A stretch of 64,000 nt of DNA from Egicoccus sp. AB-alg2 (lineage in GTDB: Bacteria > Actinomycetota > Nitriliruptoria > Nitriliruptorales > Nitriliruptoraceae): NCBI RefSeq assembly GCF_041821065.1, contig NZ_JBGUAX010000008.1:186001-250000 (forward strand), read 5' to 3'. This document shows positions 33,951 to 51,870 of this stretch, piece by piece. The notes under the pieces are model-generated. The model did not search any database and was not told the DNA's origin. It saw nothing but the letters and a program-made list of their open reading frames with translations. Position 1 is the first letter of the stretch, and each line of letters opens with the position of its first letter. The position numbers were made by a program, and so were the translations under genes.

Positions 33951-33967
33951 TCACCCGGCCCGGGTGA
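33951..33967. promoter_or_regulatory. TCACCC/GGGTGA palindromic operator (5-base spacer)
   Basis: TCACCCGGCCCGGGTGA is a perfect 17-base inverted repeat in the divergent space between the MFS-like gene (start 33875) and the DUF7144 gene (start 34072). It is the left-most of a family of sites that continues to 51.9 kb; its spacer is longer than the usual three bases. Confidence 0.6.
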
Positions 33968-34071
33968 CGCGCACGCGACGATTCGGGTGCATCGTGCGAG
34001 CGTGCGGGGTCGTGCTACGAGGGAGCGCCACGCGGGAGGCGCTGCGCGAACCCGCCGGAGGGCGGAAGGTC

Positions 34072-34473
34072 ATGCAACCGGTCACTCGTCTTCGTGTGCC
34101 CGAGGTCGTCGTCTTCGACCGCACCTGGATCCTGCTCGCGGCCCTGCTGTTCGTCATCTCGGGCTCGACGAACGTCGTCGCCGGGCTCGGGATGCTGTTG
34201 GGCGGCAGGCTGTCCTCGGTGCTCACGCCGTTCGTCGACCCACCGGTCTGGGGTTGGACGCTGGTGGCCCTCGGTGGGCTGCAGGCGCTGAGCTGCCTCG
34301 GGCTGTTCGCCCACCGGGCCTGGGCGGGGTCACTCGGCATCGGCACGGCCGGGACGACCGTGTTCGTCCAGGCCATGCTGCTGCCGCTGGCGCCGGCGGT
34401 GGCGGGCCCGCTGATCGGCGTCAACGTGCTGGGGATCTCGTCGGTCGTGGGACGCGGACCGAGCAGCACCTGA
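34072..34473 (+). CDS. DUF7144-family membrane protein, copy 1
   Basis: This 133-residue protein has four hydrophobic segments; FVISGSTNVVAGLGMLLGG and WGWTLVALGGLQALSCLGLF give the DUF7144-like pattern also seen in the protein encoded at 43382-43816. GGAAGG precedes the ATG. The function of the family is not known to me. A TCACCC/GGGTGA operator lies 104 bases upstream, linking it to the regulon proposed for this region. It converges with a small gene at 34497. Confidence 0.72.
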   Translation: MQPVTRLRVPEVVVFDRTWILLAALLFVISGSTNVVAGLGMLLGGRLSSVLTPFVDPPVWGWTLVALGGLQALSCLGLFAHRAWAGSLGIGTAGTTVFVQAMLLPLAPAVAGPLIGVNVLGISSVVGRGPSST

Positions 34474-34496
34474 AGGCGGCGGCGACCGGTTCTGTG

Positions 34497-34748
34497 TCAG
34501 GCGAACCGTCGGCGTGCCCATGCCAGGGCGCCCGGCGCCATGCCCTTGAACTTCGGGACCTCGTGCAGCTCGGCGACCAGCAACGGGGTGCCCGGCGGTA
34601 GCGCGTCCTTCAGGCCGTGGTAGACGGTCGATCGCGACTGCTCGCTGTCGACGAACAGCAGGCCGGGGCGCAGTTCCCGCAGCTCGCGCCACGGGCCCGC
34701 CGTGCCGGTCGGCAGCGCGTGTCCGTCGAGGTCGGCCAGGTACAGCAC
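34497..34748 (-). CDS. hypothetical 83-residue protein
   Basis: MLYLADLDGHALPTG opens a soluble 83-residue protein with a basic, alanine-rich C-terminus. GAGGAGG sits six bases before the GTG, so translation is likely. No family is recognised. It is divergent from the patatin gene, 99 bases away, and they may share a promoter region. Confidence 0.62.
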   Translation of the reverse strand: MLYLADLDGHALPTGTAGPWRELRELRPGLLFVDSEQSRSTVYHGLKDALPPGTPLLVAELHEVPKFKGMAPGALAWARRRFA

Positions 34749-34847
34749 GGGTCCTCCTCGGCGTCGCGTGGGCGGCACCCTAGGTGTGCCGGGCCCGCCG
34801 GGGGTGGGGGCGATACGGTGCCGCCGCCGGTGTCCCGAGGAGCGGCC

Positions 34848-35753
34848 GTGGACGACGTGGCGGTGGAACCGAACCCGACCGTCGTCTTCGTGCTCGGCGG
34901 CGGCGGCGTCCACGGTGCCGTCCAGGTCGGCATGCTGCAGGCGCTGCAGGAGCACGACATCCGCCCCGACCTCATCCTCGGCACGTCGGTGGGTGCCATG
35001 AACGGCGCCATGCTGGCCGCGCGACCCGACGACACGGTCCAGCGGCTGCGTGCGCTGTGGACCAACCTCGCCGACTACAGCCCGTTCGAGGCGTCGCTGC
35101 TCGAGCGCGCCAGCACGCTGACCAGGTCCCGGACCCATCTGCACGGCAACCACCGGCTGCGGCGGCTGTTGCTGTCGTACCTCCCCGCGCGGACGTTCGG
35201 CGAGCTGGTGGTTCCCTTCCAGTGCGTTGCCGCCAGCATCGAACGGGCCGGCGCCCGCTGGTTCGCCGACGGGCCACTGATCGACGCGCTCCTCGCCTCG
35301 ACCGCCGTCCCCGGCCTGCTGCCACCGGTGGCGCTCGGCGGCGAGCACTACCTCGACGGCGGTCTGGTCGACAGCATCCCGGTCGGCCGCGCGCTGGAGC
35401 TCGGCGCCACCTGCATCTACGTCCTCCAGGTCGGCCGGGTGGAGCAGCCGTTGCGCGTCCCGACCAAGCCGTGGGAGGTCGGGTTGATCGCCTTCGAGAT
35501 CGCGCGTCGACACCGGTTCGTGGAGGCGATGGGACGCGTTCCCGAGGGCGTCGAGGTGCACGTACTGCCCACCGGGCTGTCCGACGCCATGGACTTCACC
35601 GATCCGGCACAGTTCCGCTACCGCGACACGACGAAGGCGGCCGAACGCATGGAGACCGCGCACCTCGCGTCGTCCGCCTACCTCACCGAACGGCAGCGGC
35701 CGGCGAGGAGGGCTGGGCGCGACGGGGGCGCGGCACGCGCCGAGGAGGGCTGA
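34848..35753 (+). CDS. patatin-like phospholipase
   Basis: This 301-residue patatin-domain lipid acyl hydrolase has the oxyanion-hole loop GGGGVHG (17-23), nucleophile Ser47 in GTSVG and dyad Asp near 169 in YLDGGLVDS. It cleaves acyl chains from glycerolipids, probably at the inner membrane face. The PlsC-type acyltransferase gene begins one base after its stop, so deacylation and reacylation of phospholipids appear to be coupled in one operon. GAGGAG lies upstream of the GTG. Confidence 0.88.
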   Translation: MDDVAVEPNPTVVFVLGGGGVHGAVQVGMLQALQEHDIRPDLILGTSVGAMNGAMLAARPDDTVQRLRALWTNLADYSPFEASLLERASTLTRSRTHLHGNHRLRRLLLSYLPARTFGELVVPFQCVAASIERAGARWFADGPLIDALLASTAVPGLLPPVALGGEHYLDGGLVDSIPVGRALELGATCIYVLQVGRVEQPLRVPTKPWEVGLIAFEIARRHRFVEAMGRVPEGVEVHVLPTGLSDAMDFTDPAQFRYRDTTKAAERMETAHLASSAYLTERQRPARRAGRDGGAARAEEG

Positions 35754-35754
35754 C

Positions 35755-36879
35755 ATGCTGCCGCCGCGCTGGGCGCGCCGGCTCGTGCTGGCACCGGCCG
35801 TACCGCTGCTGACCCTCCTCGTGCTGACCACGCTGCCGCTGACCCTGCTGGTCGCGGCGTTCGCGTCGCCGGTCCTGCCGGGGCGCCTGCGCCCGCTGCG
35901 CATCCTGCTGTTCGCGCTGGTGTTCCTGCTGGCCGAGTCCGTTGCGCTGGTGGCCATGGGCGCGTTGTGGTTGGCCAGCGGGTTCGGGCGGCGGATCGGC
36001 GAGGACCGTTGGCAGGCCGCGCACTACGCGGTCATGCGGCACTATCTCGCCGTCCTGGTCCACACGGCGCAGCGGACCTTCAAGCTGGACTTCGCGGTCG
36101 ACGACGAAGCGGCGATGCCCGGCGCCGACACCTTTGACGCACCCGCGCCGGTCGTGGTGCTCAGCCGGCACGCCGGTCCGGGAGACTCGTTCCTGCTGGT
36201 GCACGGTCTGCTGCAGCGCGGCCTGCGGCCGCGGATCGTGCTGCGCGCGGACCTGCAGTGGGCACCGGCCCTGGACGTCGGTCTCAACCGCATCCCGACC
36301 CACTTCGTGGCGCGTGGCGCCCCCCGCGGCACCGGCACGGCGGCCGTCGCGGTGCTGGCGGCCGGCCTGCGCTCCGGCGACGCCCTGGTGCTCTTCCCGG
36401 AGGGGCGCAACTTCACCCCCGCCCGACGGCTGCACTCCATCGCGCGGCTGGAGGAGCTCGACCGTCACGACGAGGCCGAGCAGGCCCGCCAGATGCGCCA
36501 CGTGCTGACGCCGCGGCCGGGCGGCGCCCTGGCGGCCCTGACGGCGGCACCGGCAGCCGACGTCGTCTTCGTGGCGCACACCGGGCTCGAGGACCTCTCC
36601 AGCGTCGTCGACCTGTGGCGTGGCCTGCCGATGGACTCGCAGATCGAGATCGAGGCGTGGCGCGTCCCGGCTGCAGAGGTGCCCACCGACCGCGCCGAGG
36701 CGGAGGAGTGGCTACTGACCTGGTGGCGACGGATCGACGGCTGGATCCTCGCGCGTCACGGTCCCGCCGCCATCCCCGACGCGGTCGTCACCGCCGTCGG
36801 CGGGGTCGAGCCGGGCGCCGACGCCCCGCAGGCGCCGGAGCGGGACGGCCTGCCGTCGGAGGAACCGTCCGGGCCGTGA
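35755..36879 (+). CDS. 1-acyl-sn-glycerol-3-phosphate acyltransferase-like (PlsC domain) membrane protein
   Basis: This 374-residue protein has two or three N-terminal membrane segments (about 10-80) and then a PlsC domain. The catalytic HX4D is SRHAGPGDSF near 137-146 and the substrate motif FPEGRN is near 214-219. It transfers an acyl group to a lysophospholipid. Pairing with a patatin in the same operon suggests a lipid-remodelling (Lands-cycle-like) module. The ATG starts one base after the patatin stop. The C-terminal 40 residues are low-complexity and acidic. Confidence 0.87.
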   Translation: MLPPRWARRLVLAPAVPLLTLLVLTTLPLTLLVAAFASPVLPGRLRPLRILLFALVFLLAESVALVAMGALWLASGFGRRIGEDRWQAAHYAVMRHYLAVLVHTAQRTFKLDFAVDDEAAMPGADTFDAPAPVVVLSRHAGPGDSFLLVHGLLQRGLRPRIVLRADLQWAPALDVGLNRIPTHFVARGAPRGTGTAAVAVLAAGLRSGDALVLFPEGRNFTPARRLHSIARLEELDRHDEAEQARQMRHVLTPRPGGALAALTAAPAADVVFVAHTGLEDLSSVVDLWRGLPMDSQIEIEAWRVPAAEVPTDRAEAEEWLLTWWRRIDGWILARHGPAAIPDAVVTAVGGVEPGADAPQAPERDGLPSEEPSGP

Positions 36880-36883
36880 TCGG

Positions 36884-38017: not shown

Positions 38018-38086
38018 CGCGACCTCCGGCGTGAAGGTGCAGGCGTGCCCCGCTCCGCGGAGCAGGGCCGCCGAACGGCTCGTGCG

Positions 38087-38467
38087 CTAGACCGCGAGAA
38101 TGCGTGACTTCTGCGTGTTGTACTCCTCGTCGGTGAGGGCGCCGGTGTCGTGCAACTGCGCGAGCCGCGCCAGTTCGTCGGTCGTCGAGGTGGTGCCTGC
38201 GGCTTCCCGGATGTAGGCACGGGTCGCCTGGTCCATCTCGTAGGCGCTGCGGCGCTGCCGCTCCTGCATGGAACGCCCGCGCGCGATCAGGTAGACGAGC
38301 ACGCCGAGATAGGGGAGGGCCACGACGAAGATCGTCCATCCGGCCTTGCCCCAGCCGGACAGGTCGTGGCTGCGGAAGATGTCGGCGAAGACCGTGATCA
38401 GCAGCCAGAACCAGACGATCCAGAGGAAGAAGATAAGCATCGCCCAGAAGACGTCCAAGAGTGGCAT
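38087..38467 (-). CDS. SHOCT-domain membrane protein with PLDc_N-like region
   Basis: This 126-residue protein has two membrane helices. The first (FWAMLIFFLWIVWFWLLITVFADIFR) and WGKAGWTIFVVALPYLGVLVYLIARG have the PLD-nuclease N-terminal pattern found alone in many bacteria. It ends in a SHOCT motif, ELARLAQLHDTGALTDEEYNTQKSRIL. The ATG follows AGGAG at seven bases; the 16 extra upstream codons look non-coding. A TCACCC/GGGTGA palindrome lies 87 bases upstream. SHOCT is a short tail associated with oligomerisation. Confidence 0.85.
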   Translation of the reverse strand: MPLLDVFWAMLIFFLWIVWFWLLITVFADIFRSHDLSGWGKAGWTIFVVALPYLGVLVYLIARGRSMQERQRRSAYEMDQATRAYIREAAGTTSTTDELARLAQLHDTGALTDEEYNTQKSRILAV

Positions 38468-38810
38468 CAGGTGCTCCTTGTTGCGGCCACGGTGTCGCGC
38501 GGGCGCCGTGCCCATGCGCTGACCCGATCGTCCGTCGGCGGTGTTACTTCGGCATCACCCCGAGGGTGAGACGACCCGCCGCCGCGCTCCTCCTCCAACC
38601 GCTTGCAGCCCGTGGACCTCCGCTGCGGGTCCATCGTCACTGCTCATTGGGCCCCCTCCGGCCGAGGGGCCGGATGTGCACGGCCCACCCGCTGCGTCCC
38701 ATCGGGTGAGGCAACGGCAGCCCGTCGGCGGACGATGTCGGCACGGGCCGGCCGCCTCCGGACTGCCCCGGCCCGCAGCCGAGCACAGGATCAGGACGAA
38801 GGGATCCCCG
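38468..38810. other. 343-base divergent intergenic region
   Basis: This gap separates the SHOCT gene and the unknown gene at 38811. It contains the palindromic operator at 38555-38569. Between 38600 and 38800 no convincing ORF, RNA structure or repeat is seen; the 241-base leader of the rightward gene is unusually long. Confidence 0.5.
38555..38569. promoter_or_regulatory. TCACCC/GGGTGA palindromic operator (3-base spacer)
   Basis: TCACCC-CGA-GGGTGA lies in the divergent region between the SHOCT gene (87 bases away) and the hypothetical gene at 38811. Confidence 0.65.
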
Positions 38811-39419: not shown

Positions 39420-39438
39420 GGCGACCGGACGCCCGGCC

Positions 39439-39453
39439 CCACCCGACGGGTGA
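39439..39453. promoter_or_regulatory. TCACCC/GGGTGA-type operator (one mismatch)
   Basis: CCACCC-GAC-GGGTGA, with C in place of the first T, lies 62 bases upstream of the DUF6325-like gene at 39516 and 20 bases after the preceding stop. Confidence 0.55.
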
Positions 39454-39515
39454 GGCCGGGCACCGTGTCGACGTGTCACGGTCGTCGCCCCGCGAACCTC
39501 CAGAAGGGAGACAGG

Positions 39516-40052
39516 ATGACGATCGGACCCGTCCAACTGCTCGTGATCGGCTTCGAGCACCCCGACTTCCAGGGCGAGATCATCGGCGAGCTGCAGCGCC
39601 TCACCGAGAACGACCTGATCCGGGTCATCGACGCACTCGCCGTCCACAAGGACGCCGACGGCAACGTGGAACGTCTGCGTGGCACCGACCTCAGCGGTGA
39701 GGAACAAGCACAGTTCGGCGCCATGGTCGGGGCGCTCGTCGGACTCGGCATGGGCGGCGAGGAAGGGATGATGGACGGCGCCGAACTCGGTGAAGCCGCC
39801 GTCGAGCAGCGTGGCGGGATCTTCGACGAGGAGAACGCCTGGGACGTGCTCGCCGACATCCCCGAGGACACCGCCGCGGCGCTCATCCTGGTCGAGCACC
39901 GCTGGGCGATCCCCTTCCGGGACGCGGTCGCCCGGGCCGGCGGCTTCCGGCTGGCCGCGGAGTTCATCAGCCCGCTTGACCTCATCGCACTCGGCCTGGT
40001 GGCCGCGGACGAGGCCGAGCAGCTCGAGGCCGCCGACGCCGGCGCGCTGTGA
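39516..40052 (+). CDS. DUF6325/DUF1269-type protein
   Basis: This 178-residue soluble protein has the pattern IGPVQLLVIGFEHPDFQGEIIGELQRL...IRVIDALAVHKDADG, a glycine-rich middle (GALVGLGMGGEEG) and AALILVEHRWAIPFRDAV. These are features of the DUF6325 group related to DUF1269, one duplicate of which is encoded at 42472-42906. The function is unknown; relatives are recurrent in actinobacterial stress loci. AAGGGAG precedes the ATG. A 28-residue arginine-rich peptide gene follows 20 bases later. Confidence 0.82.
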   Translation: MTIGPVQLLVIGFEHPDFQGEIIGELQRLTENDLIRVIDALAVHKDADGNVERLRGTDLSGEEQAQFGAMVGALVGLGMGGEEGMMDGAELGEAAVEQRGGIFDEENAWDVLADIPEDTAAALILVEHRWAIPFRDAVARAGGFRLAAEFISPLDLIALGLVAADEAEQLEAADAGAL

Positions 40053-40072
40053 CGGACGCAGGAGGTAGGACC

Positions 40073-40159
40073 ATGCCAGGAGCACGACGCGTCGCCCGAC
40101 GGACCGGCCGCCGGACGGCGAGACGCACCACCCGGCGAGTCGCGCGACGCATGCGCTGA
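40073..40159 (+). CDS. 28-residue arginine-rich peptide
   Basis: The ORF encodes MPGARRVARRTGRR followed by more Arg-rich repeats (TARRTTRRVARRMR), with about 13 of 28 residues arginine. AGGAGG sits eight bases before the ATG and it follows the DUF6325 gene by 20 bases, so translation is likely despite its size. A 13-bp terminator begins 15 bases after the stop. It could bind nucleic acid or membranes. A 66-residue arginine-rich protein encoded at 56883 has a similar position. Confidence 0.6.
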   Translation: MPGARRVARRTGRRTARRTTRRVARRMR

Positions 40160-40173
40160 GCGAGCACCGAGAG

Positions 40174-40203: not shown

Positions 40204-40209
40204 TCGTTC

Positions 40210-40548
40210 TCAGCCCTCCGTCGGCGGCCAGTCCGACCGGTCCGACCGGTTGGTGAAGGCCCGCATCGGTGCCAAAAGCAGCAGCACGCTGGTCAGCAGG
40301 CCGAGCACGGCGCCGGCAGTGGTCGAGAAGGCGCCGACCAAGATCATGGCCACGATCCCCAGGGGGACGAGCCAGGCGGCACGCCGCCACACCCAGGAGG
40401 CGGCGGTCATCGCGGCCTTGCGTCCGCGCTCGTGACCATGGCGTGTCGACTCGTCGTCGGCGAAGCACTGTGCGAGTTCGGCGAGCGCGCGTTGCTCGGC
40501 GGTCGTCAGCCTCACGCGGTCGTGGGCGGGCCCCATGCTGGCGGACAT
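40210..40548 (-). CDS. DUF3040-like small membrane protein
   Basis: This 112-residue protein has a soluble N-terminal helix (LTTAEQRALAELAQCFADDE) followed by two membrane segments near 55-95, the usual DUF3040 arrangement. Its function is not known to me. GGAAGG lies eight bases before the ATG, and a perfect TCACCC/GGGTGA operator lies 75 bases upstream. Confidence 0.75.
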   Translation of the reverse strand: MSASMGPAHDRVRLTTAEQRALAELAQCFADDESTRHGHERGRKAAMTAASWVWRRAAWLVPLGIVAMILVGAFSTTAGAVLGLLTSVLLLLAPMRAFTNRSDRSDWPPTEG

Positions 40549-40623
40549 GACCGGACCTTCCGTGCTGGTCGACGTCGTCGGCGGCTCACCTCGCGACTCT
40601 CGGACGAAGCGGCCTGGCCAGCA

Positions 40624-40638
40624 TCACCCGGCGGGTGA
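40624..40638. promoter_or_regulatory. TCACCC/GGGTGA palindromic operator (3-base spacer)
   Basis: TCACCC-GGC-GGGTGA, upstream of the DUF3040 gene and downstream of the stop of the next leftward gene. Its sequence is identical to the site at 43302. Confidence 0.7.
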
Positions 40639-40672
40639 TCCGCCGAGGGCGAGTTCTTCGGCGGCGGCCGGG

Positions 40673-42262
40673 TCAGCGCCGGCCACCGTCGTGCCCGCCA
40701 GGTGGGACGCCGCTGTTGGTCCCCGGGGTGGCAGCGGCGCCCGGCGCGGCGGGCGCGTCCCCGCGCGGCCTCTCCTGGCCGCCCCGGGAGGTCACCCGCG
40801 AGGTCGTCATCGCCGCCGCCGGCGATCCCGCGCGGCCCTCGGCCACGGCGATGCCCCACAGTGCGAGCAGCACCAGCGGGACGACCACGACGACGGACAG
40901 CAGCGTGATGCCGACGAGGGCGAGCACCAGGATCCCCAGGGCGATGGCTCCCAGGCGGAACGCGGTGTCGTAGCGGGCGACGAACCCCTCGACGTCGCTG
41001 CCGCCGGGCCGGCTGGCGGTGCTGGTGCGGATCACCTCGTACGTGCGCCGTGCCCAGGCCGGCCGTGAGGCGAGGTGGGCGGCGAAGGCGACCAGCAACG
41101 CCACGACCAGCACGAGCAGCATCGTCGTCCGCAGGGAGTCCAGGACGGAGTCCGTGAGCGTGCCCACGGCCGCCTGCCCCTCGGGTGTCGCCGCCTGGCC
41201 CGCGACGGTGCCCTGCAGGTTGCGCAGCAGCAGCATCGTGAGCACGGTCGCGATGGCCGTGCCGAGGCCGAGGTACAGCACGGTCCGGCGGCGGTGTCGG
41301 GACAGCACCACCGTGCCGGCGACGAGCGCGAGCGTGACGACGACCCCCAGCCACACCAGCTGATCGGCCGCGCGCGCGGCCGCCTGCAGCTGCGCCAGGT
41401 CGTCCTGCGACATGAGCGGAACCTGACCGAAGTCGCTGGGCAGGTCGACCCCCAGCGCCTCGCCCAGACGTTGCACGGCGGTCTCCGGGTCGACGTTCGC
41501 GGCGATGTCGGGGATCCTGGCGCCGTCGAACCCCGCCGCCTGCAGGCCCTGGTCGGCGAGCTGCGTCAGGACCTGCGCCACCGCTGGCACGAGGTTGAGC
41601 CGCACCTCGCCCGAGGCCACCTCGACGTTCGGCAGTTGCGAGTAGTCGCCGCGCACGAGCGCCACCGCCCGCAGGTGGGCGTTGCGTGTCAGGTCCACCA
41701 GGAGGTTCTCGAACTCCGGCGTCTGGACGATCCGGTCGATCAACTGGTCGATGCGCCCCTCGATGCCGCTGGCGATCGGGCCTGCGAGCTGCTCGAGCTG
41801 CGGCAACGGCAGCGACTGGACACGCTGCTGCTGTTGTGCGGTGAGCCCCAGCGCGCCCCCGAGGTTGGTGCTCAGCGTGTCGCCGAGCTCGGTCAGCGCC
41901 TGGTCGAGCCGGTTCTCCAGGTCCAATGCCTGCACCGTCTCGGTGGTCAGGCGGGTCGACACGGCCTCGGCGACCTGCAGGCTCGTCAGCCCGGGCTGGA
42001 CCGCGTCCATGAACCGGTTCGTGTCGAAGACGGTGCTGCGCAGCCAGATCGCGACGCTCGTCAGCGCGATCGCGAGGACCGTGAACACGACGAGGATCCA
42101 GGTGGCGATGTCGCGGACGCGCTGCCCGGTGGACGGCGGCTGTGCCTCGAGTTCCTGCACGCGCCGCTGCAGCCGCACCACCTCGACCTCGAGGAGTTGC
42201 CGTTGCGGATCGGCGTCGCCGCCGGCGGGCCGCCGGTCGCCGCCTGCTTCGGAGCTGCTCAC
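40673..42262 (-). CDS. large hypothetical membrane protein
   Basis: This 529-residue protein has an N-terminal coiled-coil-like stretch (about 20-45, LLEVEVVRLQRRVQELEAQ) and one membrane segment (about 50-75). A 230-residue extracytoplasmic domain rich in Gln and Leu (AQQQQRVQSLPLPQLEQLAG) follows, then about four further membrane segments and a disordered Pro/Gly tail. I recognise no family with a known role. The start is a GTG after GGGAGG. It is divergent from the DUF6325 gene over a TCACCC/GGGTGA site. Confidence 0.78.
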   Translation of the reverse strand: MSSSEAGGDRRPAGGDADPQRQLLEVEVVRLQRRVQELEAQPPSTGQRVRDIATWILVVFTVLAIALTSVAIWLRSTVFDTNRFMDAVQPGLTSLQVAEAVSTRLTTETVQALDLENRLDQALTELGDTLSTNLGGALGLTAQQQQRVQSLPLPQLEQLAGPIASGIEGRIDQLIDRIVQTPEFENLLVDLTRNAHLRAVALVRGDYSQLPNVEVASGEVRLNLVPAVAQVLTQLADQGLQAAGFDGARIPDIAANVDPETAVQRLGEALGVDLPSDFGQVPLMSQDDLAQLQAAARAADQLVWLGVVVTLALVAGTVVLSRHRRRTVLYLGLGTAIATVLTMLLLRNLQGTVAGQAATPEGQAAVGTLTDSVLDSLRTTMLLVLVVALLVAFAAHLASRPAWARRTYEVIRTSTASRPGGSDVEGFVARYDTAFRLGAIALGILVLALVGITLLSVVVVVPLVLLALWGIAVAEGRAGSPAAAMTTSRVTSRGGQERPRGDAPAAPGAAATPGTNSGVPPGGHDGGRR

Positions 42263-42379: not shown

Positions 42380-42393
42380 CTCACCCGCGGGTG
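42380..42393. promoter_or_regulatory. TCACCC/GGGTGA palindromic operator (2-base spacer)
   Basis: CTCACCCGCGGGTGAG is a perfect 16-base palindrome between the divergent membrane-protein gene (start 42262) and DUF6325 gene (start 42472). Confidence 0.68.
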
Positions 42394-42471
42394 AGGTTGG
42401 GCCGCCGGGGGCGGGGCACGGTGAGCGGGACCGTGTTCGCTCGTGTCGCGACCGTGCGAGGAGGCCGAACG

Positions 42472-42906
42472 ATGGCTGGCGGCGTGTACGGACCCATGGA
42501 CTTCCTCATCCTCGAGTTCCCGCCCGGGGCGAGCGGTGAAGGGACCGCCGCGGCGCTCCGCGACCTGGTCGACCGCGGCACGATCCGCCTCTACGACCTG
42601 ATGCTCGTGCACGTGAGCGAGGACGGCGTGTGCGGAGAGATCGATCCGATGGCCGCGGACGGCGAGCTGGCCGCGCTGGCCCCGTTCGTGGGTGCGAGGT
42701 CCGGCCTGCTCGCTGGTGACGACTTGGACGAAGCCGCCCGGGCGCTGGCGCCCGGCACCGTCGCCATGGTCGTCGTCTACGAGAACACCTGGGCCGTCCC
42801 GTTCGTCGCCGCGGCCCGCGAAGAAGGTGCGCAGCCGGTCGCGAGCGCCCGGCTGACGGCACAGCAGATCATGGACGCGCTCGACGCCCTCGAGACGGTG
42901 GGCTGA
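42472..42906 (+). CDS. DUF6325-family protein
   Basis: This 144-residue protein opens GVYGPMDFLILEFPPG and has RLYDLMLVHVSEDG and VVVYENTWAVPFVAAA, the DUF6325 layout shared with the protein encoded at 39516. Soluble, function unknown. CGAGGAGG precedes the ATG. The SHOCT-domain gene follows 22 bases later and they probably form an operon, with the DUF7144 gene further on. Confidence 0.85.
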   Translation: MAGGVYGPMDFLILEFPPGASGEGTAAALRDLVDRGTIRLYDLMLVHVSEDGVCGEIDPMAADGELAALAPFVGARSGLLAGDDLDEAARALAPGTVAMVVVYENTWAVPFVAAAREEGAQPVASARLTAQQIMDALDALETVG

Positions 42907-42928: not shown

Positions 42929-43237
42929 ATGCCGGGCTTGCTGCGAGGGGTCGCACGCACGGCCGTGGTGGCCGGGACGGCCAGTGCCGTCTCCGGTCGC
43001 GTCCAGCGACGACAGGCGGAGCGGTTCGCGGATCGCGACGCCGAGATCTACGTCGAACGCCAGCAGGCGTACGACCAGCAGATGGCAGCCGCGTACCCGC
43101 CCGCCGCACCGCCACCCGCTCCCGCTGCGCGACCGGACCGGCTGTCGCAACTGGAACGGCTGGGACAGCTGCGCTCGCAGGGGCTGCTCACCGACGAGGA
43201 GTTCCAGGCGGAGAAGGCGAGGTTGCTCGCCTCATGA
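42929..43237 (+). CDS. SHOCT-domain protein
   Basis: This 102-residue protein opens MPGLLRGVARTAVVAGTASAVSGRV, an amphipathic, glycine/alanine-rich helix that may touch membrane. A Pro/Ala linker then leads to the SHOCT tail RLSQLERLGQLRSQGLLTDEEFQAEKARLL. GAGGAGGAGG lies before the ATG. DUF6325-SHOCT pairs suggest that the SHOCT protein oligomerises or anchors its partner. Confidence 0.85.
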   Translation: MPGLLRGVARTAVVAGTASAVSGRVQRRQAERFADRDAEIYVERQQAYDQQMAAAYPPAAPPPAPAARPDRLSQLERLGQLRSQGLLTDEEFQAEKARLLAS

Positions 43238-43301: not shown

Positions 43302-43316
43302 TCACCCGGCGGGTGA
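43302..43316. promoter_or_regulatory. TCACCC/GGGTGA palindromic operator (3-base spacer)
   Basis: TCACCC-GGC-GGGTGA lies 65 bases upstream of the DUF7144 gene at 43382, between it and the SHOCT gene. Confidence 0.7.
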
Positions 43317-43381
43317 GGCGTCGGCGGATCGACCGGCGCATCGTCGAGGTGTCGGAACCCCATCCCTACGGAGGAAGGTCG

Positions 43382-43816
43382 ATGTCACAGACCTACGGCA
43401 CCGAAGCCCGCCGCCGCGCCGTGCCCGAGCAGACCAGCGGTTGGGCGGCCGGGTGGATGGCATTCGCGGCGATCATGATGATCGTCCAGGGCATCTGGTG
43501 GCTGACGGCCGGCTTCATCGCCCTCGTCGACGACCAGTTCTACGTCGTCGGGCAGGAGTACGTGTTCCAGTTCGACCTGACCACGTGGGGCTGGATCCAC
43601 CTGATCGTGGGCGCGGTGGTGCTCGCCGCCGGCATCGGACTGTTCAGCGGGGCCATGTGGGCACGCGTCGTGGGCGTCGTCGTCGCGTCCGTCGCGGCGC
43701 TGATCGCTTTCGCCTGGATCCCCTACTACCCGATCTGGGGTCTGCTGCTGATCGGCGTGTCCGTCGCCGTCATCTGGGCGATCACGGCGCACGGCCACTC
43801 GCTCGAGACCGTTTGA
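43382..43816 (+). CDS. DUF7144-family membrane protein, copy 2
   Basis: This 144-residue protein has four membrane segments. GWMAFAAIMMIVQGIWWLTAG, TTWGWIHLIVGAVVLAAGIGLF and a charged C-terminus fit the DUF7144 pattern, and it is a paralogue of the protein encoded at 34072. GGAGGAAGG precedes the ATG. Both copies have a TCACCC/GGGTGA palindrome upstream. Confidence 0.85.
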   Translation: MSQTYGTEARRRAVPEQTSGWAAGWMAFAAIMMIVQGIWWLTAGFIALVDDQFYVVGQEYVFQFDLTTWGWIHLIVGAVVLAAGIGLFSGAMWARVVGVVVASVAALIAFAWIPYYPIWGLLLIGVSVAVIWAITAHGHSLETV

Positions 43817-44077: not shown

Positions 44078-46204
44078 TCAGACCAGCCCGCGACGCCGGG
44101 CGCTGGCCACGGCCTCGCTGCGGCTGCGCGCACCGAGCTTGCGGTAGACCATCCGCACGTGCGACTTCAGCGTGTTCGGGGAGACCCCGAGCTGTTTGGC
44201 GATCTCGGTCTGGTCGAGCCGGCCCTGCAACCGGCGCAGCACCTGCAACTCGCGCTCCGACAGCGGATGGCCGAACTCGTCGGTCAGTTCTGCGAGGCGC
44301 TGCTGCAGCGCGTCCATCCGTGCGAACAGGCGACCGTCGTCGTGTCCGTAGCGGCGCCGCAGCACCTGCGCCTCCGCGAGGACGGTGGCGGCCCGCTCGC
44401 GGTCGCCGCGGTCCAAGGCGAACGCGGCGAGGATGGTGGCGGCGACGATGCCCGGCCACGGGCTGACGGGATCGAAGCGTCTGGCCTGCTGCCACGCCCG
44501 GTCGCGGAGCCGGGCCGCGCCCTCCGGATCGGCGCCGTCGTCGTGGCAGCCGGCCACGAGCAGGGCCGGCCACGTGATCGGATGGTCGGCGAAGCCCAGG
44601 CGTCGTAGGCGTCGCAGCGCTTCCCCGGCCAGCTCCCCGGCCTGTACGGGGTCGCGCTCGAGGACGGCGAGGGTGCTGGTCGTCAACGTGGCCGCCAGGA
44701 CGAGGGGCTGTCCGGCTGCGGCCGTGGCGGCCTCCGTGAAGTACCCGTCCGTGGCGTCGCCTCGGAGGTACGACAACCACGCCAACGCCAGGCGCGCGGA
44801 CGCCTCGCCCGGGGTGGCCCCACCCGCCTCCCGCGCGACCGCCTCACGCACCACCGGCAGCAGATCGGCGATCGGTTGGTAGCTGGCCAGCGCCTGCAGC
44901 ACGGCGAAGGAGGAGATGCCGGACGCGAAGCCGTCGACGGCCTCCCGCACGATCCCTTCCGCGGCCAGCCGTGACCAGGCGGCCAAGGCGTCGGTGTCGC
45001 CGCTGGCGGCGGCGAGCCACGCGATGCTCAGCGCGCGCCGCGGGTCGGCCTGCGTGGTGCCCCACTCCCACGCCCATCGCCATGCGGGCAGGTCGGCGGT
45101 GCGACCCGCCCGCAGCAGGTCGAACCAGTACGAGGGACCGAGCCGTCCCAGCCGCTGCTGGTCGGCGCCCTCGATCGCGTGGTGCAGCGCCTCGGCGAGA
45201 TAGCCGTGGCCCTCGAACCACGCCGCTGCCCGCCGGTGCAGCTGGCGGACCGCCACCTCGCCGTCGACGTCCGCGAGTCGGCGTCGCAGGACGTCCCGTA
45301 CCAGTGGGCGCAGCCGTGCCGTGGACCCGCTGGACGGCAGGGGGACGACGTGCTGCTGTGCACGCGCCCGCGCGAGCAGTGCCTCTGCCTGCGTGGACCC
45401 GGTGACCGCCGCGCAGGCGGCGGTGTCGAGGCGGTCCAGGATGCTGGTGCGATGCAGGAACGTGCGCAGCTCGGCGTCGATCTCCGGCAGGTAGGCGTCC
45501 TCGACGTACTCGGTCAGCGCGTCGCCGATGAGGTCCTCGTCGAACCCCGAGACCGGCCCCGGAACCGTGGCCGCCGAGGCGGCCACGCACAGGGCCCCCG
45601 GCCAGCCGCCGGTGTGTTCCCGCAGGTCGGCGATCCGGTCGACTCCCAGGTCGAGGCCGACGGTGCGTTGCAGCAGCACCGTCGCCTCGAGATCGGTGAA
45701 CGCCAGGTCGTCCGCGTCCAGTCGCTCGGGCTCCGTCACGCCGGGCGGGAGCCAGTCCGGCTCCGTCCTGCTGGCCAGGACGATCGTCAGACGAGGAGAC
45801 GGCGAGGCGACCAGAGCCGTCAGCATCGCCTGGCTCGGCTGGGACGTGACGGCGTCGACGTCGTCGAGCAGGAGCAGTGACGGGCCGGTCGCCCACCCGA
45901 CGGCGGCGAGCAGCCGCGCGCCGAGTTCGCCCGGGTCGTCGGCGGTCGCGTCGAGAGCGAGCCAGGCGACGTGGCGGGTTCCGCGCTCCAGGTGGGCCCA
46001 CTGGGTCAGCAGCGTCGTCTTGCCCCATCCGGCCGGCGCCGTGACCAGTACCCGGGCGTCGCCGGAGGGCAGGCGTCGCAGCAGCCGTGGGCGTCGGAGC
46101 CAGTGCGCCCGGAGGGGTGGCAGGAACGGCGCGGGCGCGGGCCACCGGGCAGCGGCCGTCGCGTCGCGTGATGAGACGTCGTTCGTGGGGTCGGTGCTGG
46201 TCAT
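44078..46204 (-). CDS. LAL/MalT-type LuxR-family ATP-dependent regulator, 1
   Basis: This 708-residue protein has a P-loop APAGWGKTT near 58 and Walker B LLLLDDVDA, then helical repeats and a C-terminal LuxR helix-turn-helix (HPLSERELQVLRRLQ, VSPNTLKSHVRMVYRKLG). LAL regulators bind an inducer and ATP, oligomerise and activate transcription. The start chosen is the ATG at the beginning of MTSTDPTND, with a weak G-rich site; upstream residues look non-coding. It is the last of three tandem LAL genes on this strand. Confidence 0.86.
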   Translation of the reverse strand: MTSTDPTNDVSSRDATAAARWPAPAPFLPPLRAHWLRRPRLLRRLPSGDARVLVTAPAGWGKTTLLTQWAHLERGTRHVAWLALDATADDPGELGARLLAAVGWATGPSLLLLDDVDAVTSQPSQAMLTALVASPSPRLTIVLASRTEPDWLPPGVTEPERLDADDLAFTDLEATVLLQRTVGLDLGVDRIADLREHTGGWPGALCVAASAATVPGPVSGFDEDLIGDALTEYVEDAYLPEIDAELRTFLHRTSILDRLDTAACAAVTGSTQAEALLARARAQQHVVPLPSSGSTARLRPLVRDVLRRRLADVDGEVAVRQLHRRAAAWFEGHGYLAEALHHAIEGADQQRLGRLGPSYWFDLLRAGRTADLPAWRWAWEWGTTQADPRRALSIAWLAAASGDTDALAAWSRLAAEGIVREAVDGFASGISSFAVLQALASYQPIADLLPVVREAVAREAGGATPGEASARLALAWLSYLRGDATDGYFTEAATAAAGQPLVLAATLTTSTLAVLERDPVQAGELAGEALRRLRRLGFADHPITWPALLVAGCHDDGADPEGAARLRDRAWQQARRFDPVSPWPGIVAATILAAFALDRGDRERAATVLAEAQVLRRRYGHDDGRLFARMDALQQRLAELTDEFGHPLSERELQVLRRLQGRLDQTEIAKQLGVSPNTLKSHVRMVYRKLGARSRSEAVASARRRGLV

Positions 46205-46353
46205 GTCGCCCCCGCGACCACGGGTGGACCGGGCGATCCGGCACCACTCCACGACACCACGCCCGGCGCCGAGGCGCCAGGGCACCGTGTCTCTGTCGGT
46301 TCCTGACCTGCGACTCGTGACCTGTGCCCTCGGCGGGACGGCCAGGTGGCGAG

Positions 46354-48921
46354 TCAGAGCACGCCGACCGCGCGGGCGCGGCGGACGGCATTGGCCCGGG
46401 AGTCGACGTCGAGCTTCCGGTAGATGCTCTTGAGGTGTGACTTGACCGTGTTGACGGAGACCTGCAGGTCCTGGGCGATCTCACCGTTGGACCACAGCGG
46501 CAGGCGTTGCAGGACGGCCAGCTCCCGTTCGGTCAGTGACTCGAGCGGTGGCTGCCGGCGTTCGCCGTTGACCGAGCGCTCCACGGCCGGCGGCGCGGCT
46601 GCGGTCGCCGGTCTGCTCGTCGGCCGGTGCAGCGTCATCAGCCCGTGCGTCCTGGCCAGTCGCTCGGCCTCATGACGCAGCCGTTGGGCCTCGGCCACCC
46701 ACCCGCGCCGTCCGGCCAGGGTGGCACGGAGGCGGAGCGTCTGGATGGTCAGTCGCGGACCGGTGCCCGCGGCGGCGCCGCGGAGCAGGTGCTGGGCGAC
46801 GTCGTGGTCACCGCGGCGGGCCGCGAGTTGCGCCGCGATGAGCCGGTCCTCCGGGGCGAGCTCGCCGGCGTCGGCCAGCAATCCCTGATGAAGTTCGGCC
46901 GCATGCTCGTGGTCGCCGAGCACGAGTCGCAGCGCGGCGTGCGCCCGGGCGAGACGCGAGCGGATGCCGGCGCCGGCGTCGACGTCGAGCAGTTCGCTCT
47001 CCAGCCGTGCGAGCGCCCGGTCCGCGCCCGCGACGTCGCCCCGAACGAGCAGGACGTTCGCCAGCAGCACCTCGAGTTCCACACGCACGGGTTGGTCGTG
47101 AACGGCGCTCGTCGACGTCCGCAGCGCCAGCGCCTGCTGGCGGGCGGCGTTGGGGCGACCGCGGTCGAAGGCGATCTGCGCCTGGGCGAGGAGCACGGCC
47201 GCCGGAGGGAGCTCCAGACCCGCCTCCTCGGCGCGCCGCTGCGCGCGCCGGCACAGCAGGTCACCCTCCTCGAGATCGCCGGCGGCCGTGCGTTCCCAGG
47301 CGAGATCACCGAGGATCGCCAGCGCGCGTAGCGGCTGGTTCGAGACGTCGTCGCTGCGGAGCGCGTGCCACAGCGCCCGTCGTGCCGCGTCGTGGTAGCC
47401 GTCGACGCCCAGGGCGACCCCCAGGGTGTGGGCGGTCACGGCGTCGACCGGTCCCCGAAGGTCGGGGTCCTGGCGCAGATGGTCGACGCTGTCTCCCCGC
47501 AATCGTGCCAGCGTCGCCCGTGCCCGACGCACGAACGGCTGGGCGGTCGCGCGGGATCGCGGCCACTCGTCCAGCGTGGCGAGCGTGCTCTCCACGGTGC
47601 CGCGGTCGCCGGCCAGCAGGGCCAGGTCGAGGCGCAACGCGAGCAGCGCGGGGCGTTCGGCGAGGTCCGCGTCGGACACCTGCGTGCACGTGCGCCGCAG
47701 CCACGCCTGACCGCCAGTGGCGAGCAGTTCCGGCAGGTGCTCCTCCAGCAGGCGCATGGCGGTCGGCCGGTCGCCGGCGGCCAAGGCCTGCTCCACGGCA
47801 CCGTGCCAGCGTCCCTGTCTGGTGAGCCACGTCGCGGCACGACCGTGGAGTACCGCCTCGCGGGCAGGATGCTCGGTGCGCAACTCTTCCAGCAACACCT
47901 GCCGCAGCAGACCGTGGTGACGGAACCGACCACCGTGTTCCACCGGCACCACCAACCCGGCGTTGACGAAGCGAGCGAGCGCGGCATCACCCTCGCGGCC
48001 CAGCACCGCGTCGCACAGCGCGGGCGTCAACTGTGGCAGCACGGCGGTGTCGCGCAGGCGTCGGCGGTCCTCGCCCCGTAGGTCCGCCAGCACCTCCTGC
48101 TCGACGTACGCGGCGATGGACCGGCTGACCCGGGGCAGATCGTCGGCCCCGTGGCGGAGGTCGACGGCCGCGAGGTGGACCGCGGCTGGCCACCCCTCGG
48201 TCGACTCCCACACCGCACGTGCGGTCGAATCGTCGACGCTGGCCCCGTGGACCTCGGCCAGGTAGGCGGCGGTCTCCTCCAGCGTGAACGCGAGCGGTTG
48301 CGGACCGATCTCCTGCACCCGGTCGAGGACGCGGAGCCGCTCGGATCGGATCGCCGGGTGCCAACGCGCGATGACCGCCAGGTCGGCGTGCGCGGGCAGC
48401 CGCTCGAGCAGTAGGCGCAGGATCTGGCCGGCGCCGGCTCGCAGCGCCGTGCCGCCGTCGTCGACGACCAGCACGAACCGCTCGCCGGTGTTCTCGAGCG
48501 CGTGCACGGCGGCACCGACGGCGGTCACGACGTCGTCGCCTCGGGACCCGGCTGCTACGCCACCGTCGATGCCGGTGGCACGTTCGACGCCGGCGAGCAG
48601 GGTCTGCGCCGCCCGGTCGGCGCGACGATCTGCCTCGTCGAGGTTGACCCACGCGGTCGGCCGGCCGAGGTCGCGGACCGCATCGGCGATGGCGGTCGTC
48701 TTGCCGAAGCCGGCCGGCGCGGTGGCCACGACCACCGCGCGTCGTGTGAGGGCGTCGACGACCAGTGCATCCAGACGCGGACGCCGCAGGGCCCACGACG
48801 GTCGCGGGGGGATGCTCACCTTGGCTCGCGGGACGAGCCGGAACGGGCCGGTTCTGGCCGGTCGGGTGAGCGTCACGAGGCTGGAGGGCGCAGACGGCGA
48901 GCGGTCCATGGGAACCTTCAT
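46354..48921 (-). CDS. LAL/MalT-type LuxR-family ATP-dependent regulator, 2
   Basis: This 855-residue regulator is the largest of three. P-loop APAGFGKTT lies near 68 and FVLVVDDGG near 150. A long tetratricopeptide-like middle region is followed by the C-terminal HTH (LESLTERELAVLQRLPLW, VSVNTVKSHLKSIYRKLDV). It is separate from regulator 1 by 149 bases. An imperfect TCACCC-G-GGGTGA site lies 49 bases upstream, so it may respond to or control the regional operator family. Confidence 0.87.
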   Translation of the reverse strand: MKVPMDRSPSAPSSLVTLTRPARTGPFRLVPRAKVSIPPRPSWALRRPRLDALVVDALTRRAVVVATAPAGFGKTTAIADAVRDLGRPTAWVNLDEADRRADRAAQTLLAGVERATGIDGGVAAGSRGDDVVTAVGAAVHALENTGERFVLVVDDGGTALRAGAGQILRLLLERLPAHADLAVIARWHPAIRSERLRVLDRVQEIGPQPLAFTLEETAAYLAEVHGASVDDSTARAVWESTEGWPAAVHLAAVDLRHGADDLPRVSRSIAAYVEQEVLADLRGEDRRRLRDTAVLPQLTPALCDAVLGREGDAALARFVNAGLVVPVEHGGRFRHHGLLRQVLLEELRTEHPAREAVLHGRAATWLTRQGRWHGAVEQALAAGDRPTAMRLLEEHLPELLATGGQAWLRRTCTQVSDADLAERPALLALRLDLALLAGDRGTVESTLATLDEWPRSRATAQPFVRRARATLARLRGDSVDHLRQDPDLRGPVDAVTAHTLGVALGVDGYHDAARRALWHALRSDDVSNQPLRALAILGDLAWERTAAGDLEEGDLLCRRAQRRAEEAGLELPPAAVLLAQAQIAFDRGRPNAARQQALALRTSTSAVHDQPVRVELEVLLANVLLVRGDVAGADRALARLESELLDVDAGAGIRSRLARAHAALRLVLGDHEHAAELHQGLLADAGELAPEDRLIAAQLAARRGDHDVAQHLLRGAAAGTGPRLTIQTLRLRATLAGRRGWVAEAQRLRHEAERLARTHGLMTLHRPTSRPATAAAPPAVERSVNGERRQPPLESLTERELAVLQRLPLWSNGEIAQDLQVSVNTVKSHLKSIYRKLDVDSRANAVRRARAVGVL

Positions 48922-48969
48922 GTGCGGAGCACCTCGTGGGTACCGAGCGGCCGGGTGAGGCGGCAGGAG

Positions 48970-48982
48970 TCACCCGGGGTGA
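48970..48982. promoter_or_regulatory. TCACCC/GGGTGA-type operator (1-base spacer)
   Basis: TCACCC-G-GGGTGA lies upstream of LAL regulator 2; an isolated GGGTGA half-site is found 20 bases away. The short spacer makes it a weaker member. Confidence 0.45.
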
Positions 48983-49024
48983 AATCCGCGTAGGGCCGGT
49001 GGTCCATCGGCGGGTCCGCACGAT

Positions 49025-51205
49025 TCACGGCGAGACCTCGAGCAGCCCGAGCTCGCGGGCTCGGGTGATCGCCTGTTCGCGCGTGGCGACGCCGAGCTTG
49101 CGGTAGATCGCCCGCAGGTGCGTCTTGATCGTGTTCGGTGACACGTACAACGCCTCGGCGACCTCACGACGCGAGCGCTGCACCGCGAGTTGGCGCAGGA
49201 TGTCCAGTTCGCGCTCGGTCAGCTGCGACGCCCCCGAGCCCTCGCGGATCTCCAGGCGTTGCAGCTGGGGGTCGAGGAAGAGGACGGGGACGGCCCCGGG
49301 GTCCGCCGCCCCCGCCAGCGCCTGCCGGGCCGTCTCGAGTGACCGTCGCACGCCCCGCCAGCGGTGTGAGCGCCGCTCGTCCTCGGCGGCGGTCAGCGCC
49401 GCCGTGAGGTCGGCGAGCCACCAGTGCCGCCGACCCGCCAGCGTCGCCGCGGTCTCGCGGGCCTCTCGCGTGCCTTCGTCGTCGTCCGCCCACGCCCGCG
49501 TCAGCGCCCACAGCAGCAGTTCGAGGGTGCGGTCGAGGCTCGGCAGGGTGCCGAGGGCGACGTCACCGGGCACGCTGACGGCCAGCACGCGTGCCTGCTC
49601 GGAGTCGCCGTGCTGGTAGGCGACGAACGCGCGCACCGCCGTGGAGTCCGCCGGGTCGACCCTCCCGTCGACCGACACCGGTCCACGGGCGAGGAACTCG
49701 ATCATCGCCCTCAGGCGGCGCGCCCGCGGTCCGCTCCAGCCGAGGTGCGCCGTGGCGCCGGGTGGGGGGTGAGCCGGCGTGTCGTCCAGCCGGAGGAGGC
49801 GGTCCCGGGCAGCCGCCACCTCGCCGGCGTCCAGGAGCGTGAGCGCCTCGAGCATCGCGAGGCCGCGCGCCAGCGCGTTGCGGCGATCGGCCGGGAGCTC
49901 GCCGGGCAGTCGCGCCATCGCCAGGAACCGCTCACGGGCGTCGCCGTCCTGCAACGCGAGGGCGGCCTCGGCACTCAGGAGGTACAGCTCGGGGTCCGAC
50001 GCCGTCAGGCGCTGCGGCAGCGACTCGACGGCCGCCAGAAGTCGGACGTGCTGGCCCCGACCGAGCAGTTCGTCGCCGTGGCCACGCAGCAGCCACGCCA
50101 GCAACCGCGGCTGGTGCCCCCACGTCGCGTACGTGAGCGCCTCCTCGAGCAGATCGTGTCTGGCGCACCAGCGTGCGGCGCGGTCCAGGACGAGATCGAC
50201 GCGCTGGGGCTGCGTGCGCTTGGCGAGAGCCAGCAGCCAGTCGTGCAGCAGCGGATGCAACCGCAGCCAACTGCCCGTCTCGGTGTATTCCAGGTCGGTC
50301 CACGGCCACGACTGCAAGGCCCGCAGCTGGCGGGCGACGTCGGGGCGTCCGGTGGCGGCTTCGCACAGGGAGACCGAGAGGCGCTCGAGTGGGGCCGTGT
50401 CGACGAGGAAGGTCTGCAGGGCGTCGTCGATGGTGGGGAGAACCTCCGAGGTGAGGTAGGCGTCGATGTCCGGGTGGTCGCCACCTGCGCGTCTGAGGCT
50501 CGCCCCGGGGTCGTCGGCCGAGCGCGCCGCCAGGCCGACCAACTGCAGCCCGGCAGGCCAGCCGTCGAGCCGGCGGGTCACGTCGGCGATCGTGTCCCGG
50601 TCGACTTCGAGGCCGAGGCTGGTGCGCAGCAGCGCGCTCGCCTCGCCGACGTCGAAGCGCAGGTCGTCGGGCCCGATCTCGGCGATGGCGAGCCACGAGC
50701 GCAGGCGCGGGACGCCGATCGGCGGGCGCGTGCGGGAAGTGAGGACGACATGTGCGCCCGAGGGCAGCGACTCGACGAGGCGCCGGACGAGGTGGAGCAC
50801 ACCCTCGTCTGCGGCGTCCAGACCATCCAGGATCGTGACCACCTCCCGGCCGTGGTGTCGCAGGCGATCCACGATCCGGTCGACCGCCGCCTCGGGCGGG
50901 AGGTCGAGCAGTCCGTCACCGCCTGCGGCGTCACGGCCGGTGCCGCCGAGTCCTTCGGCGAGCGCGCCGACGAACCGGCGGGGCTGGTCGCCGACGCGGA
51001 GGTCGACCCACGTGTAGTCACGCCGGGTGTCGGTCTGGCGCATCCACTCGAGCACGGCGCAGGTCTTGCCGTAGCCGGCCGGCGCCTCCAGCAACACGAG
51101 CGGCCGGTCGATCGCGGCTTCCAGACACTCGACGATCCGTGGTCGAGGCAGGAGGTGATCCGCGGCCGGTTGTGCAGCCGTGTCTGGTGCCTGCAGGATC
51201 GTCAT
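49025..51205 (-). CDS. LAL/MalT-type LuxR-family ATP-dependent regulator, 3
   Basis: This 726-residue protein has APAGYGKTC near 41 (Cys in place of Ser/Thr at the last position), TILDGLDAADE near 125, helical repeats and a C-terminal HTH (SQLTERELDILRQLA, VSPNTIKTHLRAIYRKLG). It is the 5'-most of the three tandem genes. The three differ in length and middle region, so they are old paralogues, not recent duplicates. It is likely an inducer-responsive activator. Confidence 0.86.
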   Translation of the reverse strand: MTILQAPDTAAQPAADHLLPRPRIVECLEAAIDRPLVLLEAPAGYGKTCAVLEWMRQTDTRRDYTWVDLRVGDQPRRFVGALAEGLGGTGRDAAGGDGLLDLPPEAAVDRIVDRLRHHGREVVTILDGLDAADEGVLHLVRRLVESLPSGAHVVLTSRTRPPIGVPRLRSWLAIAEIGPDDLRFDVGEASALLRTSLGLEVDRDTIADVTRRLDGWPAGLQLVGLAARSADDPGASLRRAGGDHPDIDAYLTSEVLPTIDDALQTFLVDTAPLERLSVSLCEAATGRPDVARQLRALQSWPWTDLEYTETGSWLRLHPLLHDWLLALAKRTQPQRVDLVLDRAARWCARHDLLEEALTYATWGHQPRLLAWLLRGHGDELLGRGQHVRLLAAVESLPQRLTASDPELYLLSAEAALALQDGDARERFLAMARLPGELPADRRNALARGLAMLEALTLLDAGEVAAARDRLLRLDDTPAHPPPGATAHLGWSGPRARRLRAMIEFLARGPVSVDGRVDPADSTAVRAFVAYQHGDSEQARVLAVSVPGDVALGTLPSLDRTLELLLWALTRAWADDDEGTREARETAATLAGRRHWWLADLTAALTAAEDERRSHRWRGVRRSLETARQALAGAADPGAVPVLFLDPQLQRLEIREGSGASQLTERELDILRQLAVQRSRREVAEALYVSPNTIKTHLRAIYRKLGVATREQAITRARELGLLEVSP

Positions 51206-51315
51206 CGCGGGTCACGGCTCGAGAGTTCGGCAGTGCTGGTCACTGTGCGCGGATCGCGGCCCGACTGCCGAGGGCCGACGTCCCAGCACTCGCTCCCACG
51301 CGGACCCGGCTCGAG

Positions 51316-51801
51316 TCACACCTCGTCGTCGACGAGAGCGCTGTCGCCGCCGAACGTGTCGGTCAGGGTGATCGGCGTTCGCTCGCCGAGCCACAGTGGG
51401 AACAGGTCGCCCGGGGCGTCGCGGACCGCCGCGAAGAGTTCGTCGGCGAGGTCGTCGACGAGGAAGAGGACCACGACGTCGCCGGGCGAGACGCCGCGAG
51501 ACACGGCGTCGGCCCACTCGGGCGTCAGCCGCCAGCGGTCCAGCCTCGCCGCCGCGGCGTCGACGGTCGCCGCCGGCAGACCCAGCCAGCGCGGCCACAG
51601 CAGCAGGCCGACCAGCAGGCCCCAGAACGCGCCGTGCGCGCTGGGACGCGGCTCCAGGGTGAGCCGCTCGTCCGGGCGCCGGTGCAGGACCGCGAGATCG
51701 TGCAGGCCGACGGCATCGCGATCGGCGAGCACCTCCAGCCGCGCGCAGAAACGGCTGGCCGCGGACTGGTCGTCGAAGACCACCGCGCCCAGGGCCGACA
51801 C
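51316..51801 (-). CDS. DUF1269-like membrane-associated protein
   Basis: This 161-residue protein has an N-terminal ferredoxin-like region (GAVVFDDQSAASRF) and a hydrophobic hairpin (GAFWGLLVGLLLWPRWLGLP near 78). SRGVSPGDVVVLFLVDD follows, the segment of DUF1269 just before its C-terminus. The function is unknown. GGAGGAGG precedes the GTG. A TCACCC/GGGTGA operator lies 55 bases upstream. Confidence 0.78.
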   Translation of the reverse strand: MSALGAVVFDDQSAASRFCARLEVLADRDAVGLHDLAVLHRRPDERLTLEPRPSAHGAFWGLLVGLLLWPRWLGLPAATVDAAAARLDRWRLTPEWADAVSRGVSPGDVVVLFLVDDLADELFAAVRDAPGDLFPLWLGERTPITLTDTFGGDSALVDDEV

Positions 51802-51855
51802 GACCGCCTCCTCCGCCGACTGCCGCGAGCATCGGTTCCGGGGCGCGCCCTGGCT

Positions 51856-51870
51856 TCACCCGCGGGGTGA
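51856..51870. promoter_or_regulatory. TCACCC/GGGTGA palindromic operator (3-base spacer)
   Basis: TCACCC-GCG-GGGTGA lies between the divergent DUF1269-like and TetR genes, nearer the former, and is the right-most clear member of the set. Confidence 0.65.

Follow-up and report, generated by a model that had tools for sequence, protein, structure and literature searches.

The window analysed here is a stretch of 64,000 nucleotides from Egicoccus sp. AB-alg2 (contig NZ_JBGUAX010000008.1, positions 186,001 to 250,000), and its own numbering is used throughout. Between positions 33951 and 51870 it carries a recurrent palindrome, built of the half-sites TCACCC and GGGTGA, among genes whose products, assigned with Pfam at E ≤ 0.01, include two DUF7144, two DUF6325 and two SHOCT proteins, a DUF1269 protein and three large LuxR-type regulators of the LAL family (Table 1). 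The original prediction, made from the letters alone, had placed this palindrome in eight promoter regions, and all eight sites were located. Seven have exact half-sites, at 33951 (N5, i.e., five bases between the half-sites), 38555 (N3), 40624 (N3), 42381 (N2; previously given as 42380), 43302 (N3), 48970 (N1) and 51856 (N3), and the eighth, at 39439, has a single mismatch (CCACCC-GAC-GGGTGA, N3). All are intergenic, in a stretch of which 13.6% is intergenic (about 86% being coding according to a simple gene caller). The gene labels SHOCT, DUF6325, DUF7144, DUF1269 and LAL were likewise borne out; for the DUF3040 label given to the protein encoded at 40210–40548, Pfam offers no support at the above threshold.

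Read literally, with a single base between the half-sites, the motif fits only 48970, and further near-matches are at chance level. With spacers of 0 to 8 bases, however, the window contains 7 exact matches to TCACCC-GGGTGA against 0.05 expected, a count reached in 0 of 100 shuffles, so that a background frequency, which would have spoken against the original prediction, is far exceeded. Moreover, the entire genome (4.84 Mb) holds only 11 copies with spacers of 1 to 6 bases, 7 of them inside these 18 kb, a clustering with a chance of about 1e-12 when position is allowed for; the reversed-pattern control has no match across the same 4.84 Mb. The SHOCT gene at 42929–43237 probably shares a transcript with the DUF6325 gene before it. 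Genes for a patatin-like protein, an acyltransferase-like protein and an M50 protease (34848–38017) also lie inside the cluster, with no operator of their own, and none has a homologue in the 64 related loci of at least 10 kb that served as the sample for gene neighbourhoods.

Table 1. Putative operators and genes of the palindrome cluster. L numbers designate related loci; offsets are in nucleotides.
Feature	Position	Strand	Evidence or remark
Putative operator, spacer 5, towards DUF7144-like gene	33951..33967	+	-10-like CATCGT at 33990-33995
DUF7144-like small membrane protein, diverged copy	34072..34473	+	Pfam PF23636, 9.6e-12
Membrane protein, PLDc_N and SHOCT domains	38087..38467	-	Pfam; operator precedes homologues in L092, L123, L143, L197
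Putative operator, spacer 3, towards SHOCT membrane gene	38555..38569	-	-10-like GACGAT at 38527-38532
Putative operator, one mismatch, spacer 3, towards DUF6325	39439..39453	+	-10-like CACGGT at 39477-39482, offset 23
DUF6325 protein	39516..40052	+	Pfam PF19850, 2e-5
Small membrane protein	40210..40548	-	No Pfam match at E ≤ 0.01
Putative operator, spacer 3, towards small membrane gene	40624..40638	-	-10-like GAGAGT at 40596-40601
529-aa membrane protein, divergent from 42381 site	40673..42262	-	Operator precedes homologues in L092, L192, L197
Putative operator, spacer 2, towards DUF6325-SHOCT pair	42381..42394	+	-10-like CACGGT at 42417-42422
DUF6325 protein	42472..42906	+	Pfam PF19850, 2.9e-8
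SHOCT-domain protein	42929..43237	+	Pfam PF09851, 6.6e-9
Putative operator, spacer 3, towards DUF7144	43302..43316	+	-10-like CATCGT at 43339-43344
DUF7144 membrane protein	43382..43816	+	Pfam PF23636, 3.9e-40
MalT-like LAL regulator 1	44078..46204	-	NTPase domain, C-terminal GerE helix-turn-helix
MalT-like LAL regulator 2	46354..48921	-	NTPase domain, GerE helix-turn-helix; NCBIfam MalT best match
Weakest site, spacer 1, upstream of LAL regulator 2	48970..48982	-	No -10 element at 22/23
MalT-like LAL regulator 3	49025..51205	-	NTPase domain, GerE helix-turn-helix; MalT best in NCBIfam and PDB
DUF1269-like protein	51316..51801	-	Pfam PF06897, 3.9e-6; operator precedes homologues in L125, L134
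Putative operator, spacer 3, towards DUF1269-like gene	51856..51870	-	-10-like GATGCT at 51828-51833

Conservation and promoter geometry

Conservation was assessed in 80 DUF7144 loci from public genomes (1.28 Mb altogether). A motif-free search of the 400 bases upstream of the DUF7144 genes returned TCACCC-N5-GGGTGA as the commonest 6-mer palindrome, and exact TCAYCC-N5-GGRTGA occurs within that distance in 11 of the 80 loci. Over the full 1.28 Mb the half-sites are found 40 times at a spacing of 5 and at most 3 times at each other spacing; at spacing 5 the reversed control gives zero. Among the hosts are Acidimicrobiia, Nocardioides, Pseudonocardia, Jiangella, Rhodococcus, Actinomadura, Arthrobacter and Salsipaludibacter albus, the last belonging to the window organism's own family. 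The motif, whose absence there would have spoken against the original prediction, recurs upstream of orthologues in distant Actinomycetota, before DUF7144, DUF6325, SHOCT, DUF1269 and LAL genes. Three genomes of the window organism's genus yielded neither DUF6325 nor DUF7144 to the Pfam models, and so provided no close orthologous promoters for comparison. No paper came up in literature searches on DUF6325 or on TCACCC/GGGTGA together with LuxR.

In other genomes a TAnnnT hexamer is repeatedly found exactly 22 nt past the palindrome; among 44 distinct sites, the looser form nAnnnT occurs 31 times at 22 nt, 9 times at 23 nt and 0 to 6 times at other offsets. When this geometry, learned elsewhere, was applied to the window, a -10-like element was found at 22 nt for 6 of the 8 sites and at 23 nt for 39439, always on the side of the gene start. 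Moreover, a G follows GGRTGA-N at 77% of the sites in other genomes and at 7 of the 8 window sites; outside the half-sites this G and the -10 element alone are conserved, with no longer repeat. The offset, the direction and the flanking G therefore mark the sites as promoter elements with a direction, and the window palindromes, as far as the sequence can tell, belong to promoters whose -10 element lies a fixed distance away. Both this distance and the fixed 5-bp spacer found elsewhere had been missed by the original prediction.

The promoter signature also separates the sites within the genome. The remaining copies that were examined have no -10 geometry at 22 or 23 nt, most of them being within coding frames or next to them, and a promoter-anchored scan of the genome found six sites in this region and only two elsewhere, both with a spacer of 6, one of which resembles a conserved coding stretch recurring in relatives. 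Thus, the real sites of this genome appear to be restricted to this region. Across the phylum, the promoter-anchored N5 form is present in 15 of 119 sampled genomes, with a maximum of 16 matches per genome and a control total of two, and whole-genome counts in eight hosts gave 4 to 12 sites each, often clustered, with zero control matches; the distribution of the operator is patchy but real. G125 and G139, two genomes of one genus (g47), show 10 and 16 matches to the promoter-anchored N5 form and zero to the control, and apparently carry a large version of the regulon.

MalT-like LAL proteins as candidate readers

All three window LALs are large proteins that combine an N-terminal NTPase domain (with Walker A) with a C-terminal GerE helix-turn-helix (HTH), as expected of LAL/MalT-like regulators. 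MalT is the best NCBIfam match of each (168, 208 and 221 bits), at scores below the cut-off of the MalT equivalog model NF003420 (537 bits), and we therefore call them MalT-like and not MalT orthologues. LAL regulator 3 also has a match (1.8e-24) to the solved MalT structure 8bob. MalT-type STAND ATPases carry a C-terminal LuxR/GerE HTH, and the E. coli protein, whose boxes are GGA[TG]GA, controls maltose use; such boxes, in mixed orientation, were seen upstream of malP at L210:2046-2087. The window system has in common with E. coli MalT the half-site and, by alignment, the Walker A residues and a MalT-like HTH (recognition region TTIKTHIRNLYQKLGV in E. coli MalT, NTIKTHLRAIYRKLGV in the third window LAL). 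It differs in that the window LALs are 23–26% identical to MalT and in that the E. coli boxes form no fixed palindrome. At 48970, a third GGGTGA half-site lies about 11 bp from the palindrome (48950–48982), so that three boxes of mixed orientation precede a LAL gene, recalling the MalT box arrays of E. coli.

MalT-like LAL genes are present in 11 of the 17 long loci with an anchored operator, compared with 5 of the 47 without one (p = 4e-5), and the operator directly precedes LAL genes in Jiangella (L104) and Dactylosporangium (L194). The local LAL proteins, already proposed by the original prediction, are accordingly the best candidate readers of the palindrome among the proteins considered, to judge from sequence and gene neighbourhood.

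The original prediction knew of no described regulator with this site, but one exists. In a 51-gene region of Actinoplanes sp. SE50/110, TCATCC-5nt-GGATGA stands ahead of 17 start sites, with its 3' end 34.4 nt upstream of the start (Droste et al., 2020; PMC7567727). Deletion and overexpression showed that ACSP50_3915, a MalT-like LuxR/LAL protein, activates about 40 genes of this region, none for maltose use; the region is maltose-regulated, consists mostly of uncharacterised genes, includes the arginine deiminase pathway, and responds strongly to just one of its two LALs (PMC7567727). The two systems have in common inverted GGRTGA half-sites over the -35 region upstream of several co-located genes, MalT-like LAL genes inside the region, many uncharacterised membrane proteins and no maltose genes. 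Since a -10 element at 22 nt predicts a start about 34 nt past the palindrome, the Actinoplanes geometry, with the palindrome over -35, is also that of 7 of the 8 window sites, as reckoned from the -10-like element. In contrast, the window half-sites are all GGGTGA (GGATGA in Actinoplanes), their spacers range from 1 to 5 bp and are mostly 3 (a fixed 5 in Actinoplanes), the gene set is smaller and of DUF families, and the organism is far from Micromonosporaceae. Only 33951 has the Actinoplanes-type 5-bp spacer, and the window operator is thus best regarded as a variant and not the same site. Among 41 genomes of Dactylosporangium's family, TCATCC-N5-GGATGA forms one clear cluster (G072). The operator type itself is therefore already described; what is new is its spread across Actinomycetota, its link to DUF7144, DUF6325, SHOCT and DUF1269 genes, and the shortened, variable spacer, mostly of 3 bp. 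A further LAL protein, SCO6993 of Streptomyces, also binds inverted repeats and regulates itself, besides repressing antibiotic regulator genes, but its own sites have no mutual consensus (PMC9628970).

We consider it quite probable that the window palindromes serve a MalT-like LAL regulon as activator operators, with one or more of the three local LALs as the putative reader. One or more of these proteins (44078–51205), activated by some signal, would place one HTH on each GGRTGA half-site, or MalT box. The gene-proximal half-site, followed after 22–23 nt by a weak nAnnnT -10 element, would occupy the -35 region, from which the bound activator could recruit RNA polymerase to the DUF7144, DUF6325, SHOCT, DUF1269 and related genes. 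The sites, their clustering, their conservation, their geometry and the association with LAL genes are observed; binding by the window LALs, activation, and a tolerance of short spacers are what we infer from them. Several points weigh on the other side. The nAnnnT criterion is loose, 48970 has neither a -10 element nor the flanking G, 6 of the 17 operator loci have no LAL gene within the DNA compared, and LALs are common in Actinomycetota, so that some association is expected in any case. Nor are spacers of 1–3 bp known to function with a MalT-type protein.

The six operator loci devoid of a LAL gene would also fit a scheme in which a MalT-like LAL from another part of the genome is the reader and the three local proteins have other targets, as would the strong effect of only one regional LAL in Actinoplanes. 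We regard this as very unlikely, since LAL genes are concentrated at operator loci and nearly all promoter-geometry sites of the genome fall in the region that encodes three of them. Another dimeric regulator is very unlikely to be responsible; the obvious candidate is the TetR-family protein encoded at 52017–52613, divergently from the 51856 site, as TetR proteins bind palindromes and could act here as repressors. Its gene, however, has a homologue in 0 of the 64 related loci, and because the adjacency is not conserved we rejected it as the reader; in addition, the same half-sites are tied by experiment to MalT-like LALs in Actinoplanes, and the sites are placed as those of an activator relative to the promoter. 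That the palindromes are due to chance, are hairpins or terminators, or belong to a dispersed repeat element is scarcely credible. Inverted repeats can indeed form hairpins, and relatives have hairpin-like N4 copies with a UUCG loop, but against these readings stand the chance expectation of 0.05 sites, the limited conservation beyond the half-sites, the fixed distance and the direction towards gene starts, the location of four sites in divergent spaces and the printed sequence, in which no T-run is evident past the sites.

Spacer variation and the reach of the proposed regulon

In other genomes 55 promoter-anchored sites have exact half-sites, 54 of them N5 and one N4. The operator elsewhere is hence a 17-bp palindrome whose 5-bp spacer is fixed, and the mixed spacing of the window, N3 at five sites (39439 included) and N2 (42381), N5 (33951) and N1 (48970) at one each, is peculiar to this genome. 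Because the near half-site stays 22–23 nt from the -10 element in spite of these changes, it is the far half-site that moved; the distal half-site would thus have come closer while the proximal one was kept in phase with the promoter. An N5 register concealed within the N3 sites was rejected, the hexamer at the N5 position of 43302 being the non-matching GTTCAC. In G027, a genome of the same class, the gene orthologous to that of the window's 529-aa membrane protein has two N3 sites upstream, one followed at 21 nt by TAGCGT (by eye), and a further N3 site occurs at G027:C13; these are too few for a lineage rule. TCACCC-N4-GGGTGA palindromes also recur in the class (G000-G003, G022, G032 and G038), some with a TTCG loop (TCACCCTTCGGGGTGA), and were set aside as hairpins or coding sequence, those examined having no -10 element at 22 or 23 nt.

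A wider reading, for and against which we find ourselves evenly poised, is that of a regulon scattered over Actinomycetota, reported so far only as the Actinoplanes region, in which MalT-like STAND regulators govern DUF7144, DUF6325, SHOCT and DUF1269 proteins together with stress-type enzymes unrelated to maltose. In the window genome the spacer of the operator would no longer be fixed: phasing would be kept at the promoter-proximal half-site alone, and a flexible tether would let the second HTH reach the other.

Behind the operator in other genomes are genes for a PLP-dependent decarboxylase of the glutamate decarboxylase family, a class II glutamine amidotransferase, a family 2 glutamate-cysteine ligase, a ThrE exporter, a calcium-type P-ATPase and DUF2252 (these six among L078:13113-14483, L192:10584-12593, L193:2381-8638 and L123:7178-8569), and also for AI-2E and sulfate transporters, a lipid kinase and G6PD; the amidotransferase and ThrE are also features of the Actinoplanes region. 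Some sites were counted in both directions, so that some of these genes may not be targets. Taken with the arginine deiminase pathway of the Actinoplanes region, these genes may point to a response to acid or energy stress. In any event, DUF7144, DUF6325, the SHOCT partners and DUF1269, widespread families with no assigned function, acquire a shared candidate regulator, and MalT-like LALs are taken further from sugar use. As the operator and its promoter signature are searchable, the regulon can be sought from sequence in any actinobacterium. The spacers of 1, 2, 3 and 5 bp in one genome offer a natural test of how a MalT-like protein grips two half-sites.

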